Source of the DNA: Luteitalea sp.
Lineage (GTDB): Bacteria; Acidobacteriota; Vicinamibacteria; Vicinamibacterales; Vicinamibacteraceae
NCBI GenBank assembly: GCA_009377605.1
Contig: WHTT01000027.1
Coordinates: forward strand, 1-64,000
Reading direction: 5' to 3'
Length of the DNA: 64,000 bases
Shown here one piece after another: positions 38,808 to 48,099 of this stretch. Each line of letters opens with the position of its first letter. Position 1 is the stretch's first letter. Both the position numbers and the translations under genes were made by a program. Under the pieces are notes generated by a model. It was given only the letters and a program-made list of their open reading frames with translations. It made no database searches and was not told the origin of the DNA.

Positions 38808-38883
38808 GGTGAGTGTAGCTCAAGGGCAGAGCGCCGGACTGTGGCTCCGGATGTTGGGGGTTCGAATCCCCTCACTCACCCCA
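38808..38883 (+). tRNA. tRNA-His (anticodon GTG)
   Basis: The cloverleaf is complete. The acceptor stem GTGAGTG pairs with CACTCAC. The anticodon arm is CCGGA, loop CTGTGGC, TCCGG with anticodon GTG. The T arm is GGGGG, TTCGAAT, CCCCT. The histidine identity pair is clear: G at -1 (38808) opposite discriminator C (38880). CCA is encoded (38881-38883). Confidence 0.96.
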
Positions 38884-39163
38884 TTCACCTCGTCGCTTCT
38901 CAGAAGACTTGTAAGCCCAGCTCTCTCTAGTGCTTAGCGAGTTCGAATTCTCGAAGGACCTCTGACCGACTCTGTCGCTCTGAACCGGATCTCGAGGTGT
39001 ATCCTTTCTTTGCGGGGTTCGAATCCCCTCAATCCAGCCGCAGAGCGCCATCGGAATCTGACAGCCTGGGTCTTTGTTTCTTTGGCGGAGCCATCGCGTC
39101 CTTCGAGCACTGGCACAATGGACTCTGCTGGGCGCAGATGTCGCTTTGGGCTGAAAAGGAGTG
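38884..39163. repeat. Gap carrying a duplicated tRNA T-arm
   Basis: The 18-bp sequence GGGGTTCGAATCCCCTCA from the tRNA (38857-38874) recurs exactly at 39014-39031, followed by ATCCAG. A looser GAGTTCGAATTCTCG lies at about 38939. Such 3' tRNA duplications are typical of integration scars or tRNA decay. No integrase gene is present. Confidence 0.6.
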
Positions 39164-39502
39164 ATGAGCGGCGTGGAGAAGCCATACATTGAAGAACGAG
39201 ATGGCGGGTATTGGGTGGCCGGGACCCGCGTATCGTTGGACTCGGTGGTCTGGGCCTTCAAGCGCGGCGCGTCGCCCGAGTCCATCAAGCACTCTTTTCC
39301 TCTCCTGACGCTCGAGCACGTGTACGGCGCCATCACATACTATCTTGCGCATGAGGAGGACATCGATCGGTATCTTGATGCTTCTGAGCACGCATTCGCC
39401 AGACAGGCCGCTGAGATCAGGTCCAACGCCCGTGACGCGAATCCGCCGCTGTTCGAACGGCTCTCGCAGATGAAGCAGGACCGCAAGACGTCACGTCGAT
39501 GA
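39164..39502 (+). CDS. DUF433 antitoxin (first copy)
   Basis: This 112-residue protein has the DUF433 HTH-like domain: GGYWVAGTRVSLDSVVWAFK, RGASPESIKHSFPLLTLEHV and YGAITYYLAHEEDIDRYLD. DUF433 proteins partner PIN-like DUF5615 toxins in VapBC-like systems. The next gene overlaps by 4 bp and encodes that toxin. ATG 39164 is used, with AAGGAG just upstream and a GTG at 39161. A paralogous pair is at 47411-48099, and this copy is about one-third identical by eye. Confidence 0.82.
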   Translation: MSGVEKPYIEERDGGYWVAGTRVSLDSVVWAFKRGASPESIKHSFPLLTLEHVYGAITYYLAHEEDIDRYLDASEHAFARQAAEIRSNARDANPPLFERLSQMKQDRKTSRR

Positions 39503-40065
39503 AGGTCCGCTTCCAGGCCGATGCGGATCTCAACGAAGACATCGTATCGGGACTGCTTCGTCGAGAGTCAGCCATCGATTTTCAGACCGCACGTGAAGCC
39601 CACCTGGCGGGTCTCACCGACGAAGAGGTCCTTCGTCGTGCCGCGGACGAAGGGCGGATCCTCGTGACTCACGATCGCCGCACCATGCCACGGCACTTTA
39701 CAGCGTTCATCCAACAGCGCACGAGCCCTGGCGTCATTCTGATCTCGCAGCACGTCAGCGTCAGGGATGCGATCGACGAACTGCCCGAGGGGCGTCAGAA
39801 GTGCTTCCCTATCAACCATCCTTTGACGGCGCCGGCTTTGACGCCGATCAACGCTCCGATCGGGCCACCCAAAGCGAATCCCACACCACCTCCGAGAACC
39901 GCCCCGCCGGCGGGGAGCGCCCAGGACATGCTTCCCCTTTCAGCCTCTGTCTCCTTCTGCGCGTTTTCCCTCGGGATGGATGGTTGCTCCGTGACCGCGT
40001 CGTACACGCGGCGAAGGCTCACGTCCCGTCGCGGCATCTCGATCTTCACCGTCACAAGCAGTTGA
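39499..40065 (+). CDS. DUF5615 PIN-like toxin with a foreign C-terminus
   Basis: Residues 1-94 match DUF5615: FQADADLNEDIVSGLLRRES, LTDEEVLRRAADEGRILVTH and GVILISQHVSVRDAIDEL. The acidic residues D8, D10, D50 and D59 would be the PIN-like metal site. From residue 95 homology stops: the intact relative at 47749 continues LLLIVECSLEGEWEGQVRYL, but here the frame reads PEGRQKCFPINHPLTAPALT. The remaining 90 codons are antisense to the next gene. The toxin has therefore lost its last beta-strand/helix and is probably inactive or altered. ATG 39499 overlaps the antitoxin stop. Confidence 0.7.
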   Translation: MKVRFQADADLNEDIVSGLLRRESAIDFQTAREAHLAGLTDEEVLRRAADEGRILVTHDRRTMPRHFTAFIQQRTSPGVILISQHVSVRDAIDELPEGRQKCFPINHPLTAPALTPINAPIGPPKANPTPPPRTAPPAGSAQDMLPLSASVSFCAFSLGMDGCSVTASYTRRRLTSRRGISIFTVTSS

Positions 40066-40583
40066 GGCGGGCTCGGCGATCGCTCGTACGTCTCGATGAC
40101 TTTGGCATTCCCGACGGTGGTCTCTGACACGAGTCGGTTGCTCTCCCACCGCGTCCGGACGTCTCGCCCATCAACCTTCACCGGGCGATTATTCGTGGGC
40201 AACGCCCGCACGTGTCCGTCGGGCTCCGTCAGCACGACTTTCTGCCCGTCTTGCGTCAGGACGAAGTGGATTGGCGCGTTCAGGATCAGGTCGTGCGCCT
40301 CCTTCATCTCTGGGCCCATCTCTTCCTCTGCACGCCCGCCGCCATGGCGGCCTGGTCCATGACCGCCACCGCCGCGACCGGCATGCTCGCCAGCGCCTCC
40401 CCTGCTTTGGAGTTTCTCTTGGGCGTCGTCACTGAGGTCCTTGTTCAACTGCCACTGCCCGGTCAGATCCGGCCGGCCTGGGGTAGCGGCCTGGGCGGCC
40501 ACGGAAACGCCGGCTGCGGCCCAGGCGGTGATGACGGCCGCCACGCAGGCCAACAGCGCGCGAGTGATTCTGGTCTGGATCAT
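39795..40583 (-). CDS. Secreted protein with His/Gly linker and glycine zipper
   Basis: The 262-residue protein has a signal peptide (ALLACVAAVITAWAAAGVSV, cleavage near AAQA). A short GRPDLTGQWQLNKDLSDDA segment typical of secreted acidobacterial proteins follows, then a Gly/His-rich linker (about 62-85) and a beta-rich domain (IHFVLTQDGQKVVLTEPDGH and GRDVRTRWESNRLVSETTVG). Near the C-terminus is a hydrophobic glycine-zipper segment, GGAVLGGGVGFALGGPIGAL. The function is unknown; an envelope-stress or metal-related role is a guess from the His-rich linker. A regulatory site like that of the response-regulator gene lies 40-90 bp upstream (40620-40675). Start is ATG 40583 with AGGAG. Confidence 0.75.
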   Translation of the reverse strand: MIQTRITRALLACVAAVITAWAAAGVSVAAQAATPGRPDLTGQWQLNKDLSDDAQEKLQSRGGAGEHAGRGGGGHGPGRHGGGRAEEEMGPEMKEAHDLILNAPIHFVLTQDGQKVVLTEPDGHVRALPTNNRPVKVDGRDVRTRWESNRLVSETTVGNAKVIETYERSPSPPQLLVTVKIEMPRRDVSLRRVYDAVTEQPSIPRENAQKETEAERGSMSWALPAGGAVLGGGVGFALGGPIGALIGVKAGAVKGWLIGKHF

Positions 40584-40619
40584 GGATGTGCTCCTGTCAT
40601 GACGCTGGCGTTGGCGGAC

Positions 40620-40675
40620 AGCGTAATCCGGCGCGGTTGAATGCGACCTGAACGCGCCGTTCAGGTGCCGTTCAG
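40620..40675. promoter_or_regulatory. Operator copy 1 (GTTCAG half-sites)
   Basis: From the left: AGCGTA (the -10 TACGCT of a leftward promoter, 40620-40625), TTGAAT (40637-40642), CTGAAC (40648-40653), GTTCAG (40659-40664) and GTTCAG (40670-40675). Both outer pairs have 11-bp register. The whole block is a near copy of 45369-45424. The leftward promoter would serve the glycine-zipper gene. No -10 follows on the right. Confidence 0.6.
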
Positions 40676-40697
40676 CGGGAAGAGCGTCGCGGCCGCG

Positions 40698-41759
40698 TCA
40701 CATGATGATCCCGACCTCGCTGAGCAGCCGGCGAGCGCCATCCAGTTCCTCGAACTGCCGCACGTCGAGGCCCGGCACGGTCAGATCGTCGGCCGTCGGA
40801 CTGCCCTTGCGCGGCTCGACGCCCTCGAGCACCGGGATCTCGGTAGTGTCCTCGGCGTAGTACTGCCCGACGATCTGCGACAGCATGAAGTCGACGAAGG
40901 CGCTGGCCGCAGCCTCTTTGTCGGTGCCCTCGATGATGCCGACGCCGGCCACGTTGAGGAGACCTCCGGGATCACCGCCGTAGAACTTGGCCGCGACGTT
41001 CATGGCGTCGTCCTCGGCCTGCTGGTCGTCGAGATAAGAGTGACTCCCGAAGCCGACGTCGATGATCTCGCCTGCGGCCACGGCAGCGACGATCGGCGTG
41101 GCGCCTTGGAACACCGCGGGCGCGTTTGCCTGGATGCCCTCGAGCCACGCCCGCGCCTCCTCCTCGCCCTCGATCTGGCGCAGCGCAGTGATGACATCCT
41201 GCAGGGAGCGGCTGGTGGGATCCCAACCGATGCGACCACGCCAGGCGGGATCGGTGAACCCCAGGATTGAGTCGGGGACGTCGTCTTTCCTTAGCTTGTC
41301 GGTGTTGTAGAACACGACGTGCGCCCGGCCGGAGGTCCCCACCCAGGTGCCGTCAGGGGACCGGTACGCCGCGGGTATCCGATCGAGCTGCTGGTCGGAG
41401 AGCGTGGCGAGCCGCCCGGCGGCACTCAGCGACCCGAGGGCGTCGCTAAGCGGTCCATAGAACACGTCGGCGGGCGAGTTGGCGCCGTCCTCGAGGATCT
41501 GGTCGGCCAGGTCGATCGGGTTCCCCCAGCGGGCCCGGACCTTTATCCTGGTCTGCCGCTCGAACTGGTCGAACAAAGGCTCGGCGATCTCCCGGTCGCG
41601 CGCGTAGACAGTGAGGGTGTCGTCCGGCTCGCGGTCGGTGGCTGCCTGGTCATCGGGGACAGCGGGGGCGGGGTCGGCGGCACCGCTATCGCGGCTGCAC
41701 GCAGTGGCGACCATCGCCGTCGCGACCGCCAGGGGCAGCATCCTGAACAGTTGCTTCAT
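40698..41759 (-). CDS. Iron(III)-type solute-binding lipoprotein
   Basis: This 353-residue protein starts at ATG 41759 with a lipoprotein signal (LAVATAMVATAC, lipid-anchored Cys about residue 21). A periplasmic-binding fold of the Fe(III)/FbpA type follows: DTLTVYARDREIAEPLFDQF, VRARWGNPIDLADQILEDGA, SPADVFYGPLSDALGSLSAA and GRAHVVFYNTDKLRKDDVPD. The C-terminal lobe has AAVAAGEIIDVGFGSHSYLD. Fe-type binding proteins normally serve BPD-type permeases. Here the only transport genes nearby (same strand, 109 bp upstream) encode an FtsX-type permease and its ATPase, so it is a receptor without its normal partner. Its Ala/Asp/Pro-rich style hints at an actinobacterial source (inference). Confidence 0.82.
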   Translation of the reverse strand: MKQLFRMLPLAVATAMVATACSRDSGAADPAPAVPDDQAATDREPDDTLTVYARDREIAEPLFDQFERQTRIKVRARWGNPIDLADQILEDGANSPADVFYGPLSDALGSLSAAGRLATLSDQQLDRIPAAYRSPDGTWVGTSGRAHVVFYNTDKLRKDDVPDSILGFTDPAWRGRIGWDPTSRSLQDVITALRQIEGEEEARAWLEGIQANAPAVFQGATPIVAAVAAGEIIDVGFGSHSYLDDQQAEDDAMNVAAKFYGGDPGGLLNVAGVGIIEGTDKEAAASAFVDFMLSQIVGQYYAEDTTEIPVLEGVEPRKGSPTADDLTVPGLDVRQFEELDGARRLLSEVGIIM

Positions 41760-41868
41760 CGGTGCTCGGCAGGACCAGTCGGCCATGTTCCGGTTCCTCT
41801 CTATCGCGCGTCGTTATCAAGGGTTCGCTAAGTCGCGCCGACCTGATCGCCTCGGTGTCGTTGTCATG

Positions 41869-44322
41869 TCAGAGGTAGGCGAGGGCTTCGCGGACGGTGA
41901 TGCGGGAGGCGCGGGTTGCTGCTGCGTCGGTGGCAAGTATCGCGCCGAGGATGATCAGCACAGTCCAGACGGCGGCAGCAAGGATGGAGAACCGAAAGGG
42001 TAGCGGCGCGTTCACGAAGAGGTTGCCGAGCACGGCGTTCATGGCCAGGGTGAGCCCCAGAGCTGGGATGACCGCCAGCAGGCAACTCGCGAGGGCGATG
42101 AAGACGCCTTCGGCGACGACGATGCGGCGCACGGTCTTAGGGCGTGCCCCGATGGCGTGCATGACGCCGAACTCGCGGATCCGCTCGAGGACGTTGGTGC
42201 CCATCGTCGAGGCCAGACCGATGCAGCCGATGATCCCCATCGGAAGGGCGGTCGCCAGGAGAATTACCAGGATGGGTTCCAGGTGCCCTCCGGTAGAGGC
42301 TTCCGACCGGCCTACCGATTCCGCGGATCGCACGTCGATCCCCGCGCCGGTAAGGCGCTTGCCAACAGCCTTGGAGACGGCTTCGCGGGTCTGCTCGTCG
42401 TGGCCATCCGTGGCGATGCGCAGCGTGTTCGACCAAAGCGGCTGCTCCATGGCTTTGGCGAGGCCTTCGGCCGTCACGTACGCGCCGCCGACGTGGCCCC
42501 TTTCTTCCGCGATGCCTACGACGCGCCAGTTGGTGGACTCGCCAGCGATGGACAGTTCAACGGTGTCACCGGCTCGGACGTCGAAGTCGGTGGTAACGAG
42601 GATGACCTGGCTGAGCACGATCGCCCCGGTTTCACCAGGCCTCAGCCAGCGGCCCTCCAGCAGCTTCGGAGGTGTGAACATGGTGGCGTCCGCGGGAACC
42701 GCGGTCACCGAGACGCGGCCGTGCCCCTGGTCGGGATAGGTGCGCGAGAGCGGGAACTGTCCTGGCCCGTAGACGCCGGCCGCTGCGCCGGTCCAGCCTT
42801 CGATCCGCCTGACGTCTGGCACCTGCTCGAGCATCGGGGCGAGCGCGTCCACCGAGATCGAGCCGGTGAGCTGCACCACGACATCCCATTTGAGCTTGTC
42901 GGTGGCTTCCTCGGCGACTGCCGCGGTACCTTCGCGTGCGGACATTCCGGCGACGAATACCATGCCCGCGCTGGCCAGCAGCCCAACGGACAGCAGGAAC
43001 CGGGCAGGACGCCGGATGGTGTTGCGCAGCGCCAGGAGCAGACCACGGTCGACGCGGGGAAGACGACCAAGCCGGGCGAGGAAGCCGGTCGACACGCGCG
43101 GGTTCGAGCCAAGGCCACGATGGTCGATCGCCGCCCGTACGGTGGTGCGGCTGGTTTTGACCAGCGGTACCGCGGCCATCAACACTGGGAGGACGAGGCC
43201 GGCGGCGAGGACCACCAGGTACGTCCACCAGGCAGCCGCGAGGCTGGCAGCCTCGATGCCCAGAAACGCGAAGACATTGGGGACAAAGACGCGGCCGATC
43301 AGGATGCCTGGGACTAGCGCGAGCAGGGTGGCCGCCCCAGCCACCGTCAGCGTCATCGCCAGGTACAGGCGCCCAATACGGCCGGATCGCGCACCGATCG
43401 CCTTCATGATGCCGATCTGCGGTATCTGCTGGGTGAACAGGCCATTGAGCATGTTGGCGACCAGGATCGTGCTGAGCAACAGGGCAGACCCCGCGCCGAT
43501 GAGCAGCGTGCTCAGGAGGGCCTCGGCCTGCCCTTGGTGGGGGTGCGCATAGGGCTCGGGAACTTGGATCTCCCGGATCGCCAGCCCGTGTTCTTGCTGT
43601 AGCCACGTGGCGACGTCGCCGGCAACGGCCACGATGGCATCGCGGTCTCGGCTCGGCGTCGCCTGCCCCGGGTCGGCGACCTGGATCTTCAACTGGTCAA
43701 AGACGTCCGGCTCCCCGAGCGCGGCCAGCGACGCCGTAGACAGATAGCCCTGCCCTGTCTGCTGCTGGGGCGCGGGCGCGAGGCTGGGGTCGTACACGGT
43801 ATCCGCTACCCGGAGCTGCGCAGGTTCGCCGTCAGGTGTCTCGACGGTGATGGTGTCGCCAACCGCCACGTCCAGCAGGCTGAAAGAGTCGCGTCTGATG
43901 AAGACGTCCCCAGGGGCAGGGGGCCAGCTGCCCTGCCGCACCCCGACGTTCGCCATCCGCATCGGATCGTCGGGCGCTGCGGCGAACACCTGCAGCGGGA
44001 TCTCCCGCACATGGCCGTTCACCTCGATCTCACTGGTGAACACGGTGCGCCCGGTCGCCTCGATGACGCCCGGCTGCGTACGTGCCTCCGCTGCGATCGC
44101 CGCCATCTCCTCGGCGTCGATGGCGGGGCCGAATCGGATCGTTGCCGATGCCGGCTCGGTGCTCAGGTACGCCTGTTCCGTCTCCCTGTCGATGACGCTC
44201 CAGGCATAGAGCACCGCGCTGAACATCGTCAGACTGACCGCGATCGCGACGACCATCAGTGCGATCCGGCCCCAGGTCGCCCGGAGGTCCCTGCGCAACT
44301 TGACTATCAGTAAGCTGCTCAC
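41869..44322 (-). CDS. FtsX-type ABC permease
   Basis: This 817-residue permease differs from the ADOP group. It opens with LIVKLRRDLRATWGRIALMV and TM1 IALMVVAIAVSLTMFSAVLY. A long extracytoplasmic domain (about 45-265) comes before an FtsX core (LIGAGSALLLSTILVANMLN, LYLAMTLTVAGAATLLALVP and TYLVVLAAGLVLPVLMAAVP). A second extracytoplasmic domain (about 475-690) and three final helices follow, ending SRITVREALAYL. Its start overlaps the ATPase stop by 4 bp (ATGA). Extracytoplasmic function, as in MacB/LolCDE, or antimicrobial-peptide handling as in BceAB are both plausible. The substrate is unknown. Confidence 0.85.
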   Translation of the reverse strand: MSSLLIVKLRRDLRATWGRIALMVVAIAVSLTMFSAVLYAWSVIDRETEQAYLSTEPASATIRFGPAIDAEEMAAIAAEARTQPGVIEATGRTVFTSEIEVNGHVREIPLQVFAAAPDDPMRMANVGVRQGSWPPAPGDVFIRRDSFSLLDVAVGDTITVETPDGEPAQLRVADTVYDPSLAPAPQQQTGQGYLSTASLAALGEPDVFDQLKIQVADPGQATPSRDRDAIVAVAGDVATWLQQEHGLAIREIQVPEPYAHPHQGQAEALLSTLLIGAGSALLLSTILVANMLNGLFTQQIPQIGIMKAIGARSGRIGRLYLAMTLTVAGAATLLALVPGILIGRVFVPNVFAFLGIEAASLAAAWWTYLVVLAAGLVLPVLMAAVPLVKTSRTTVRAAIDHRGLGSNPRVSTGFLARLGRLPRVDRGLLLALRNTIRRPARFLLSVGLLASAGMVFVAGMSAREGTAAVAEEATDKLKWDVVVQLTGSISVDALAPMLEQVPDVRRIEGWTGAAAGVYGPGQFPLSRTYPDQGHGRVSVTAVPADATMFTPPKLLEGRWLRPGETGAIVLSQVILVTTDFDVRAGDTVELSIAGESTNWRVVGIAEERGHVGGAYVTAEGLAKAMEQPLWSNTLRIATDGHDEQTREAVSKAVGKRLTGAGIDVRSAESVGRSEASTGGHLEPILVILLATALPMGIIGCIGLASTMGTNVLERIREFGVMHAIGARPKTVRRIVVAEGVFIALASCLLAVIPALGLTLAMNAVLGNLFVNAPLPFRFSILAAAVWTVLIILGAILATDAAATRASRITVREALAYL

Positions 44323-45017
44323 ACCAACACCCCCGTCCGCTCGTCGGCGACGATTCGGCCGTCCATCAGGGTGACCTCTCTTCCGACGAGCGACCTGATA
44401 TCGCGTTCATGAGTGACCACCACGATGGTCCGTCCTTCGGTGTGCAGATCGGCGAACAGCTTCAAGACGGCGTCGGCCGTGTGGGAGTCGAGGTTGCCAG
44501 TCGGCTCGTCGGCCAGTAGCAGCGGTGGATCATTGGCCAGCGCCCGCGCGATCGCCGCGCGTTGCTGCTGGCCGCCCGATAGCGTGGCGGGCAGTTTGTC
44601 GGCCTGGTCACCGATGCCAACGCGTTCCAGTAGCTGCAGCGCACGATCGCGGCGTTCACCAACGGGGATCTTCACGGCGAAGTCCATCGGCAGCATCACG
44701 TTCTCCGCCGCGGTCAGTGTCGGCAGCAGCTGGAAGAACTGGAACACCAGCCCGACGTTGCGGCCCCTCCAGGCGGCCAGTCCGGACTCCGACAATGAAC
44801 CAAGATCGGCGCCCGCTGCATGAACCACTCCCGACGTGGGCCGATCGATACCGGCGAGCAGATTCATCAACGTCGTCTTACCACTGCCCGACCGCCCGAC
44901 GATCGCGACGAACTCGCCCTGCGAGATGTCGAGGCTGAGGTGATCAACGGCGACGAGATTGCCGGCGGCCAGCGGATATGTCTTGACGACGTCGCTGACT
45001 TGTATCGCAAATCCCAT
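44319..45017 (-). CDS. ABC transporter ATPase (MacB/LolD type)
   Basis: This 232-residue ATPase has a complete motif set: Walker [10 protein letters not shown] (about 42-50), Q-loop VFQFFQLLP, signature [15 protein letters not shown], Walker [13 protein letters not shown] and the switch His in VVTHERDI. The DEPTGNLDS form is typical of the LolD/MacB/FtsE group, which power FtsX-type permeases by mechanotransmission. It overlaps the permease gene by 4 bp. ATG 45017 begins the conserved domain; the longer frame to 45095 is not supported. Its upstream neighbour on this strand is the 60-residue membrane peptide. Confidence 0.93.
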
Positions 45018-45127
45018 GGTGAGTCGTCCTACCGCGGTGCTTGGGTTTGGCTGGATGCATGACGCCGGACGGCTGGTGCCCCTCGTGTTTGGCACGCTGC
45101 TTCCCTACTTGCGCGGCCCGTACGGGA

Positions 45128-45310
45128 TCATCCGTGAAGCCTGGGTCCGTGGCCGCCGCCGATGAGCATGATGGCGACAACCGCCAGGACCACGACGGCC
45201 ACGATGATCCCCGACACCCACACCCAGCGTGGTAGACCGCTGGTCGATTCGCGATCGGACCCCGCACCGGTGTCGTGGCCGGTGTCGGGGTAGAGCGACC
45301 GGTTAGTCAT
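45128..45310 (-). CDS. Single-helix membrane peptide
   Basis: This 60-residue protein has a polar N-terminus (MTNRSLYPDTGHDTGAGSDR), one membrane segment (VSGIIVAVVVLAVVAIMLIG) and a short basic/Gly C-terminus (GGGHGPRLHG). It is the first gene of the ABC module on this strand, 59 bp downstream of the operator region and 110 bp before the ATPase start. Similar short membrane peptides sit beside FtsX-type transporters in actinobacteria (recollection of family style, not a search). It may be an accessory subunit. ORF size alone is weak evidence, but composition and topology are convincing. Confidence 0.65.
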   Translation of the reverse strand: MTNRSLYPDTGHDTGAGSDRESTSGLPRWVWVSGIIVAVVVLAVVAIMLIGGGHGPRLHG

Positions 45311-45368
45311 GTGCGCCTCCGTTGTGTCGCGGTTGTTCTCCCATTGGTCGACGCTGCCGCTGGAAAAC

Positions 45369-45442
45369 AGCGTAGCCAGGCGCGGTTGAATGGCACCTGA
45401 ACGCGCCGTTCAGCTGCCGTTCAGCTCCGACTGCGCTATAAA
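45369..45442. promoter_or_regulatory. Divergent operator/promoter, operator copy 2
   Basis: The leftward -10 is AGCGTA (45369-45374, TACGCT read leftward). Half-sites are TTGAAT (45386-45391), CTGAAC (45397-45402), GTTCAG (45408-45413) and GTTCAG (45419-45424). The rightward -10 is TATAAA (45437-45442), with no usable -35. Outer half-site pairs are in 11-bp register, as OmpR/PmrA-type regulators require. This points to activation of both directions and autoregulation of the response regulator. Confidence 0.7.
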
Positions 45443-45455
45443 GGGCTGAGGTCGG

Positions 45456-46109
45456 ATGCGAATTCTTGTCGTTGAGGACGAGGCGTCGCTCGCGAAGCAG
45501 CTCACCGCGTCCATCGCGGAGGCCGGGTATGCCGTCGACCACGCCGCCGATGGCGAGCGCGCGGACTTTCTGGCGCACACGGAGCCGTACGACGCGGTGG
45601 TTCTCGATCTGGGGCTGCCAAAGATGGACGGCCTGACGCTGTTGCGGACGTGGCGCGACCGAGGCCTCGCGACACCCGTGCTGGTGCTCACGGCTCGCGG
45701 CAGCTGGCACGAGAAGGTACGGGGGATCGACGGTGGCGCGGACGACTACGTGTCGAAGCCGTTTCGCATCGAGGAAGTGCTCGCGCGCCTGCGCGCGCTG
45801 ATGCGCCGCGCCAGCGGCCACGTCACGCCGGAGCTTCGCGCGGGCCGCGTCATGCTGGATCCGCGGGTGTCACGCGTCACGCGAGACGGCGCGCCGGTGA
45901 AGCTCACGAGTCACGAGTTCCGCGTGCTCTCGTACCTGATGCACCATCGGGGACGCGCCGTGTCTCAGGCGGAGCTCACGGAGCACATTTACGCGCAGGG
46001 CTTCGATCGCGACTCGAACACGGTCGAGGTGTTCATCGCGCGCCTGCGCCGCAAGCTGGGCGCGTCGTTCATTGAAACCGTGCGCGGCCTGGGCTACCGA
46101 ATCGCATGA
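45456..46109 (+). CDS. OmpR-family response regulator (QseB/PmrA-like)
   Basis: This 217-residue protein has a receiver domain with the acidic pair in VVEDEA (7-9), the phosphoacceptor Asp51 in VVLDLGLPKMDG and Lys101 in YVSKPF. A winged-helix output domain spans about 125-217 (LTSHEFRVLSYLMHHRGRAV and DRDSNTVEVFIARLRRKLG). It overlaps the kinase gene by 4 bp. The operator upstream (45369-45442) has GTTCAG direct repeats spaced 11 bp, which suits a dimer of this family, so autoregulation and control of the neighbouring ABC module are inferred. Start is ATG 45456. Confidence 0.93.
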   Translation: MRILVVEDEASLAKQLTASIAEAGYAVDHAADGERADFLAHTEPYDAVVLDLGLPKMDGLTLLRTWRDRGLATPVLVLTARGSWHEKVRGIDGGADDYVSKPFRIEEVLARLRALMRRASGHVTPELRAGRVMLDPRVSRVTRDGAPVKLTSHEFRVLSYLMHHRGRAVSQAELTEHIYAQGFDRDSNTVEVFIARLRRKLGASFIETVRGLGYRIA

Positions 46110-47119
46110 GTCATCTCTCGCTCAAAGCGCGCCTCCTGCTGGGCGGCATCCTCTGGACCATCGGCCTGTTCATGATCGCGCACGGCCTTCTCACCTCCGT
46201 CATTCAGCACCCGTCCGCGCCGGTTGTGTTTCACTCGACATTCCGGCACACGCCTGCGACGGCACTGGTCGGCGTGCTCTGCATGCTCGTCGGATTGCTG
46301 CAGGTCCGGCGCGGCATGTCGCCGATCACGCAGCTGCGCACCCGCCTCGCGGCGGTACACAGAGGCGTGGACGCGCGCGTCGGCGGCAGCTATCCGGCAG
46401 AGGTGCAACCCCTGGTCGACGACCTGAACGCGCTACTCGACGAGCGCGAGCGGCGTGTCGCGCGCGCCATCGCCAAGGCCGGCAACCTCGCGCATGGCCT
46501 GAAGACGCCGCTGGCGGTGCTGGGGCAGGAGGCGCAGCAGGCGCGAGCGGCAGGACATGAGCAGCTTGCCACAGCGATCGATCAACAGATTGATCGCATG
46601 GGGCGGCAGATCGACTATCACCTGGCGCACGCGCGATCCGCCGCTTCCTCCGTGTCGGCTGCGGCGCGCGCGTCGATCACCGAATCTGCCGAAGGGCTGG
46701 TCCGCGCGCTTCAGCGTCTGCATGCCGACCGAGGCCTCCGCATGGAGATCCAGGCGCGTGCGTCGCACGCCTTTCGGGGACAGCGAGAAGATCTCGACGA
46801 GATGCTCGGCAACCTACTCGACAATGCCTACAAGTGGGCTCGCACCGAGGTCAGGCTTACCTGCGCGAGGGAAGGCGAGGAGATCGTGATTGCGGTTGAT
46901 GACGACGGCCCTGGAATCGCGCCGTCGTTGCGAGAGGCGGTCATGCGGCGCGGCGTTCGCGCCGACGAAGCAGCGCAGGGCTCCGGCCTCGGTCTGGCGA
47001 TCGTGCGCGATCTCGCCGAGCTGTATGGCGGATCGGTTTCGCTCCACGAATCGCCGATGGGCGGCACGCGCGCGCGACTCACGCTGCCGGCTCAGAACGC
47101 CGTCTCGCGGCGAACATGA
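46106..47119 (+). CDS. PhoQ-like sensor histidine kinase
   Basis: This 337-residue kinase has two membrane helices (about 10-30, LLLGGILWTIGLFMIAHGLL, and 52-68, TALVGVLCMLVGLL) around a very short periplasmic loop of roughly 20 residues. The HAMP-like linker follows, then the His box NLAHGLKTPLAVL with His130, and the ATPase N box NLLDNAYKWA and G boxes DDDGPGIAP and QGSGLGLAIV. NLAHGLKTPL is the PhoQ-like form. With so short a sensor loop, the kinase probably senses within the membrane or through the partner ABC transporter, as in BceS. It is translationally coupled to the response regulator. Confidence 0.92.
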   Translation: MSHLSLKARLLLGGILWTIGLFMIAHGLLTSVIQHPSAPVVFHSTFRHTPATALVGVLCMLVGLLQVRRGMSPITQLRTRLAAVHRGVDARVGGSYPAEVQPLVDDLNALLDERERRVARAIAKAGNLAHGLKTPLAVLGQEAQQARAAGHEQLATAIDQQIDRMGRQIDYHLAHARSAASSVSAAARASITESAEGLVRALQRLHADRGLRMEIQARASHAFRGQREDLDEMLGNLLDNAYKWARTEVRLTCAREGEEIVIAVDDDGPGIAPSLREAVMRRGVRADEAAQGSGLGLAIVRDLAELYGGSVSLHESPMGGTRARLTLPAQNAVSRRT

Positions 47120-47410: not shown

Positions 47411-47734
47411 GTGAGCGCGACTGAGACGATCCAGCCGGTTCCCATCCATACCGACCCACATGGGGTTATCCGTGTCGGCGGTACGCGCGTGACGTTGGAC
47501 ACGCTCGTCGCCGCCTTCCACGCAGGTGCGACCCCGGAGGAAATCGTTCAGCAGTATCCGTCCGTCACCTTGGCCGATGCCTACTCGGTGATTGCCTACT
47601 ATCTGCGACATCAGGCTGAGATCCGAGCGTACATCACCGTACGCCAGCAACAGGCCGCGCAGGTCCGCGAGGGGAACGAGCGGCGCTTCGACGCGTCTGG
47701 CATACGCGACCGTCTCCTGGCCCGGCGCCGATAG
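47411..47734 (+). CDS. DUF433 antitoxin (second copy)
   Basis: This 107-residue DUF433 protein starts with GTG 47411, 19 bp after a perfect TATAAT -10, so its leader is short. The domain holds GVIRVGGTRVTLDTLVAAFH, AGATPEEIVQQYPSVTLADA and YSVIAYYLRHQAEIRAYI. A charged tail follows and the gene ends 14 bp before a DUF5615 toxin gene. The pair is a VapBC-like toxin-antitoxin module. A related but damaged pair is at 39164. Confidence 0.85.
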   Translation: MSATETIQPVPIHTDPHGVIRVGGTRVTLDTLVAAFHAGATPEEIVQQYPSVTLADAYSVIAYYLRHQAEIRAYITVRQQQAAQVREGNERRFDASGIRDRLLARRR

Positions 47735-47748
47735 CCCGCGAGTCCCTC

Positions 47749-48099
47749 GTGCTGCGACTGGCGGCAGACGAAAACTTCAACAACGATATCGTCCGCGGCT
47801 TGATGCGCCAAAAGCCAGATCTCGACATCCGTCGGGTCCAGGATGCCGGACTCTCTGGCGCGGATGATGCCGCCGTGCTCGAATGGGCCGCCAACGAAGG
47901 GCGCGTGCTGGTGACACACGACGTGGCGACCATTACCAAGCATGCCTACGATCGCGTCCGGTCCGCGCAGCCGATGCCTGGGGTCTTCGAAGTGGAGCCT
48001 AGTGTCGCTGTCGGTCGCGCGATTGAGGACCTGCTCTTGATCGTAGAGTGCAGCCTCGAAGGCGAGTGGGAAGGACAGGTCCGCTATCTACCGCTGTAG
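47749..48099 (+). CDS. DUF5615 PIN-like toxin, intact
   Basis: This 116-residue protein covers the whole DUF5615 domain: MLRLAADENFNNDIVRGLMR with the N-terminal Asp/Glu, GADDAAVLEWAANEGRVLVT, then HDVATITKHAYDRVRSAQPM, and the end AIEDLLLIVECSLEGEWEGQ followed by VRYLPL. The acidic residues D7, E8, E50 and D58 would form the metal site of a PIN-like nuclease that cleaves RNA. GTG 47749 is used. The antitoxin is the upstream DUF433 gene. It provides the reference for how much is missing from the 39499 copy. Confidence 0.85.
   Translation: MLRLAADENFNNDIVRGLMRQKPDLDIRRVQDAGLSGADDAAVLEWAANEGRVLVTHDVATITKHAYDRVRSAQPMPGVFEVEPSVAVGRAIEDLLLIVECSLEGEWEGQVRYLPL

Follow-up and report, generated by a model that had tools for sequence, protein, structure and literature searches.

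A duplicated candidate operator of a two-component system on both sides of an ABC transporter operon in Luteitalea

Near-identical promoter-like blocks lie on either side of an ABC transporter operon in a Luteitalea sp. genome, and one of them adjoins a response regulator gene. This raises the question of whether one regulator governs the units around both blocks, and of how the second block arose. We analyzed a stretch of 64,000 nucleotides (the window; contig WHTT01000027.1, positions 1 to 64,000, assembly GCA_009377605.1), for which a preliminary description had reported a 56-bp block at 40620-40675 recurring at 45369-45424. Upon alignment, the repeat proved to be real and longer than claimed: positions 40601-40676 and 45350-45425 are identical at 65 of 76 positions (86%), gap-free and in the same orientation with an offset of 4749, since both copies also have in common ~19 bp of the leader transcribed leftward. 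The similarity is far above chance (blastn against the contig, E = 1.2e-19), and the runner-up ungapped 76-mer in the 70.8-kb contig matched at just 40 of 76 positions.

The elements within the blocks were located as the preliminary description had placed them. In the left copy, the half-sites are TTGAAT at 40637, CTGAAC at 40648, and GTTCAG at 40659 and 40670; those of the right copy start at 45386, 45397, 45408, and 45419, and the steps are exactly 11 bp throughout both. Each copy is thus an intact array of four half-sites, TGAAN7TGAACN5GTTCAN6GTTCAG (cores 40638-40675 and 45387-45424), and each carries the leftward -10 TACGCT (AGCGTA on the plus strand) at 40620-40625 and 45369-45374, respectively. 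The rightward -10 of the regulator promoter, TATAAA (45437-45442, plus strand), follows the last half-site of the right copy by 12 bp. Where the right copy has this element, the left copy has CGCGGC, so the rightward -10 is absent there, which bears out both earlier statements on this point. The 6.79-Mb genome contains exactly two instances of the paired motif GTTCAGN5GTTCAG, namely those in the window copies; with one mismatch allowed, matches were at about the control level.

Downstream of the left copy lies a minus-strand gene (GZ; 39795-40583) for a 262-aa secreted protein with a signal peptide, a GxWxLN motif, a Gly/Arg/His-rich linker, and a C-terminal glycine-zipper tail, the zipper being restricted to the last ~60 residues. 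GZ matched no Pfam or NCBIfam model, and homologs were found in 63 of the 149 genomes of the order. The leftward operon between the copies, all on the minus strand, begins with a 60-aa protein with one hydrophobic segment and hence a single predicted transmembrane (TM) span (45128-45310), which had no Pfam match. It continues with an ABC ATPase (44319-45017; Pfam ABC_tran, 7e-37; LolD/MacB/YbbA-like, under the curated NCBIfam cut-offs) and a duplicated FtsX-type permease of 817 aa (PERM; 41869-44322; two Pfam FtsX stretches), full-length relatives of which occur in nine other genomes of the 396 searched in the phylum. The module ends with an extracellular solute-binding protein gene (40698-41786; Pfam SBP_bac_8, 2.8e-19, and SBP_bac_6). 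We did not find a solute-binding protein gene beside the relatives' ABC genes, and its tie to the module is positional only. To the right of the right copy, on the plus strand, are a 217-aa OmpR/PhoB-family, PmrA/QseB-like response regulator (RR; 45456-46109) with Acidobacteriota-wide orthologs, whose receiver (PF00072, Response_reg) and winged-helix (PF00486, Trans_reg_C) domains both score above the Pfam gathering thresholds, and a sensor histidine kinase (HK; 46106-47119; Pfam HATPase_c) with two TM segments and a ~24-aa loop.

The surroundings of this segment have features of their own. A tRNA-His gene lies at 38809-38883, and 21 bp of its 3′ end are repeated at 39014-39034; synteny with the tRNA-His contig of the congener (G056 C15) ends at 38908, just past the tRNA. 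This stretch (38809-39034) resembles a hotspot for integration; we saw no obvious integrase. Two DUF433-DUF5615 pairs (toxin-antitoxin-like, PIN-type; 39161-40065 and 47411-48099) flank the segment from GZ to HK and have a 35-bp repeat in common (80%).

To see what the block represents, we turned to regulator orthologs elsewhere. RR and HK orthologs are present in 35 of the 193 genomes of the class and in further classes, and the same operator stands upstream of the orthologous RR gene in at least 28 independent loci across the Acidobacteriota, accompanied by -10 elements that point in both directions. Nearly all RR orthologs are preceded by TGAAC-N6-TGAAC-N5-GTTCA-N6-GTTCAG, 12 bp, and TATAA. 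An alignment of 31 operators contained 14 invariant columns, every one of them within half-sites; the spacers vary freely across the phylum. On the leftward side, 11 bp separate the outer half-site from a -10 of the form TAnnnT, whose T, A, and T are kept in 24, 27, and 27 of 28 loci. This recurrence argues well for reading the block as a bidirectional operator that belongs to the regulator itself. When GTDB genomes were scanned by pattern, the same layout also turned up in many Alpha- and Betaproteobacteria among the matches listed, where the operators often lie ~350 bp from a related RR (L197-L276), a distance that suggests a short intervening gene.

Half-sites spaced by 11 bp are the usual target of OmpR/PhoB-family regulators, and promoters activated by PhoB- or OmpR-type proteins carry tandem half-sites ~11 bp apart in place of a -35. 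Such tandem half-sites upstream of a -10 were found in the 28 independent loci and in both window copies. The window operator thus resembles PhoB, OmpR, and PmrA promoters in regulator family, half-site spacing, and a -10 at 11-12 bp, but differs in having two pairs back to back in one palindromic divergent promoter, and in its TGAAC/GTTCA motif, which is found phylum-wide with changing divergent partners. As judged from these features, the operator is a nearly palindromic divergent promoter with two tandem half-site pairs, each predicted to replace a -35. For comparison, 7-bp repeats with a 4-bp spacer are reported for Mycobacterium tuberculosis PhoP (PMC4832192). We found no description of this four-half-site operator, or of the two-component system that it serves, in the titles and abstracts of the open-access literature.

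How unusual is a second copy? We derived a matrix from 28 operators, none of them from the window's genus, and applied it to the contig; it scored the left and right sites at 51.8 and 51.7 bits, respectively, and the next independent contig site at 2.4. An operator profile whose training set includes both window copies was run over the 193 genomes of the class. RR-bearing genomes had as a rule a single strong site, which adjoined the RR gene. For its one RR, the window's genome had two strong sites, and no second genome of this kind was found among the 193. One candidate, G163, was set aside since its two strong sites each adjoin a separate RR paralog; the second paralog there (L181:352-982) sits beside an ABC operon, next to an intact operator, and its frame appears split, with matches in two frames. 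In both genomes of the window's genus, a weaker related site precedes a paralogous RR (G000 C22, G056 C33).

The two copies could in principle have arisen independently under selection for the same binding site, and the strong phylum-wide conservation of the half-sites is what such selection would leave. However, the copies share spacers that vary across the phylum and the ~19-nt leader, which points to duplication; we rejected convergence on these grounds and regard an independent origin as extremely improbable. The blocks are instead, in our judgment, quite likely duplicates by descent of the RR's cognate bidirectional operator, through which the RR would drive three units. The presence of one RR and these two operator sites in the genome supports the earlier proposal of one regulator and two operators serving RR-HK, the ABC operon, and GZ, which we consider well supported at the level of sequence. 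Binding, activation, and co-regulation are inferred here from conservation. In the proposed mechanism, phosphorylated RR would bind both copies, with the outer half-site of each pair, 11-12 bp from the -10, standing in for a -35. At the right copy, RR would activate its own RR-HK operon rightward and the small-protein, ATPase, permease, and solute-binding protein operon leftward; at the left copy, devoid of a rightward -10, it would activate GZ alone, leftward.

The genus is represented by two genomes, that of the window and a congener (G056), and the latter bears directly on the history of the locus. Its GZ gene has a single operator (L045:9553-9620) and no ABC module, and lies in a non-syntenic place; the encoded protein is 79-81% identical and ends at residue 202, lacking the zipper tail, where ~165 bp are missing. 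The congener operator is a mosaic: it is of the left type up to 40645, with one exception at 40626, and of the right type from 40665 to ~45435 (right-copy coordinates), where similarity ends at the -10. It differs from the left copy at 2 of 76 positions, compared with 11 of 76 between the two copies. We found no RR or HK ortholog in the congener, the best RR being 49% identical. The operator there is thus a predicted orphan, and its GZ gene would be controlled by another regulator or would have lost this control.

These data also bear on whether the left copy has any regulatory role or is merely the scar of a recombination or insertion event. A scar would fit the missing rightward -10 and the start of the locus beside the synteny break 3′ of tRNA-His. 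The left copy nevertheless retains four half-sites and a leftward -10 at the conserved spacing, scoring 51.8 bits, and the congener GZ promoter keeps the same elements with 74 of 76 positions identical, so we consider a scar very unlikely.

The preliminary description had proposed that a divergent RR/GZ promoter was duplicated when the ABC module inserted. The duplication stands, whereas its direction does not follow, because the congener mosaic fits deletion as well. If the two-operator locus is older, the congener would have lost the ABC module by direct-repeat recombination, and RR-HK separately. Recombination between the copies yields exactly the left/right mosaic observed; by a simple clock, the smaller distance between left copy and congener (2 against 11 of 76) places the duplication before the split of the two genomes; and the congener also has neither RR nor HK, with similarity ending at the rightward -10. 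We hold such a loss to be possible, although we lean against it, in view of the relatives of the RR and of the ABC genes.

In the RR-HK tree, the window pair is sister to that of a Bryobacterales MAG, RYN_18 (RR 90% identical), followed by G251 of another class, and stands apart from the same-family genomes G003 and G027. Since the pair groups with other classes it looks horizontally acquired, probably from another class of Acidobacteriota. This closest relative has the RR-operator arrangement with no ABC module, and its leader resembles that of GZ: both are 45 nt long and have ATGACAGGAGCACA in common, a short match that includes the ribosome-binding site and that 1 of 2000 shuffles equaled in score. 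Such a relative speaks against loss in the congener and, together with the mosaic operator, leads us to favor insertion. On this reading, to which we give moderate preference, the GZ-operator-RR arrangement would be the older one, and the ABC module would have inserted into the core of the operator, so that it came to be flanked by two hybrid operators. An RR directly beside the glycine-zipper gene in relatives, as the earlier proposal would lead one to look for, was not found intact: the congener has no RR ortholog, and the GZ homologs in other orders have no adjoining RR.

The ABC module had been called foreign-looking, a label that its composition does not sustain. GC and GC3 (0.674/0.830 for PERM, 0.642/0.772 for the ATPase) are within the range of other contig genes, and operons of an ATPase and an FtsX-type permease are recurrent divergent partners of the RR (G157, G164, G165, G251, G448, and an Eisenbacteria MAG). 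Other divergent partners are ADOP-like permeases at many loci, SAM methyltransferases (G003, G027, G087, G129, G185, G009), and short secreted proteins with a TGTW-like motif (G075, G142, G066, G051); the methyltransferases were identified by Pfam and the remaining partners by reading translations. In G420, a similar ABC operon carries the operator, and the RR-HK pair of that genome lies on a separate contig; orthologous RR-HK pairs without any adjacent ABC genes also exist. The operator on ABC operons of other genomes suggests that their control by the RR is a recurring theme and not an accident of the window.

In the ABC tree, the window module groups with operator-less operons (G419, G337) and not with the RR-linked ones (support at the relevant nodes 0.995-0.999; the window branch is long), which fits a recent recruitment into the regulon. 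Late entry of this kind counts further against an old two-operator locus. It also counts against the idea that ABC operon, operator, RR, and HK came as one unit, with GZ and its operator copy as the newcomer. That idea draws on the existence of the ABC-operator-RR-HK arrangement in the six ATPase-permease genomes listed above and on the non-syntenic position of the congener GZ-operator, which shows an ability to move. Yet RR-type sequence follows the congener GZ operator up to 45435, and we consider a GZ newcomer unlikely.

Comparison with known systems places the proteins near, but outside, several families. PhoPQ, QseBC, and PmrAB of Escherichia coli and Salmonella are the best NCBIfam matches of RR and HK; with scores of 209.6 (cut-off 345) and 159.5 (cut-off 497), respectively, the two window proteins fall far short of the curated thresholds for PhoP/PhoQ or QseB/QseC equivalogs, and, in contrast to those systems, the window HK has no periplasmic sensor domain of appreciable size. 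PERM is ADOP/MacB/LolE-like, with FtsX domains mid-protein and at the C-terminus as in ADOP, MacB, and LolCDE, and the ATPase is LolD/MacB-like, but both are under every curated cut-off (for PERM and the ADOP family TIGR03434, 61.3 bits against 622.3). By hydropathy analysis, nearly all HK orthologs share the two TM segments and the short loop of the window HK, which probably perceives its signal within or close to the membrane, possibly via a partner. Bce-type modules of Firmicutes combine a short-loop two-TM kinase, an OmpR-type regulator, and an adjacent ATPase and FtsX-superfamily permease. The window locus has the same set of neighbors, and its HK, like Bce-type kinases, is without a periplasmic sensor domain. 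Unlike in Bce modules, the permease is duplicated, ADOP/YbbP-like, and divergently transcribed, and many orthologous RR-HK loci have no ATPase partner.

Taken together, the single regulator, its two operators, and the mosaic operator of the congener make it possible to read from sequence how a regulon grew when its operator was duplicated, in a soil-type acidobacterium whose relatives nearly always have one operator copy. The four-half-site operator provides a testable candidate binding site for a two-component system widespread in the Acidobacteriota, and the changing divergent partners suggest that the RR is a general envelope-response regulator. More tentatively, the locus may belong to an undescribed phylum-wide two-component system with a portable bidirectional operator whose divergent partners (ABC exporter, ADOP permease, methyltransferase, secreted protein) are swapped from lineage to lineage, and which was copied here to capture two of them. 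If so, by analogy with Bce modules, the short-loop HK and the FtsX-type permease may form a transporter-coupled sensor of envelope stress.
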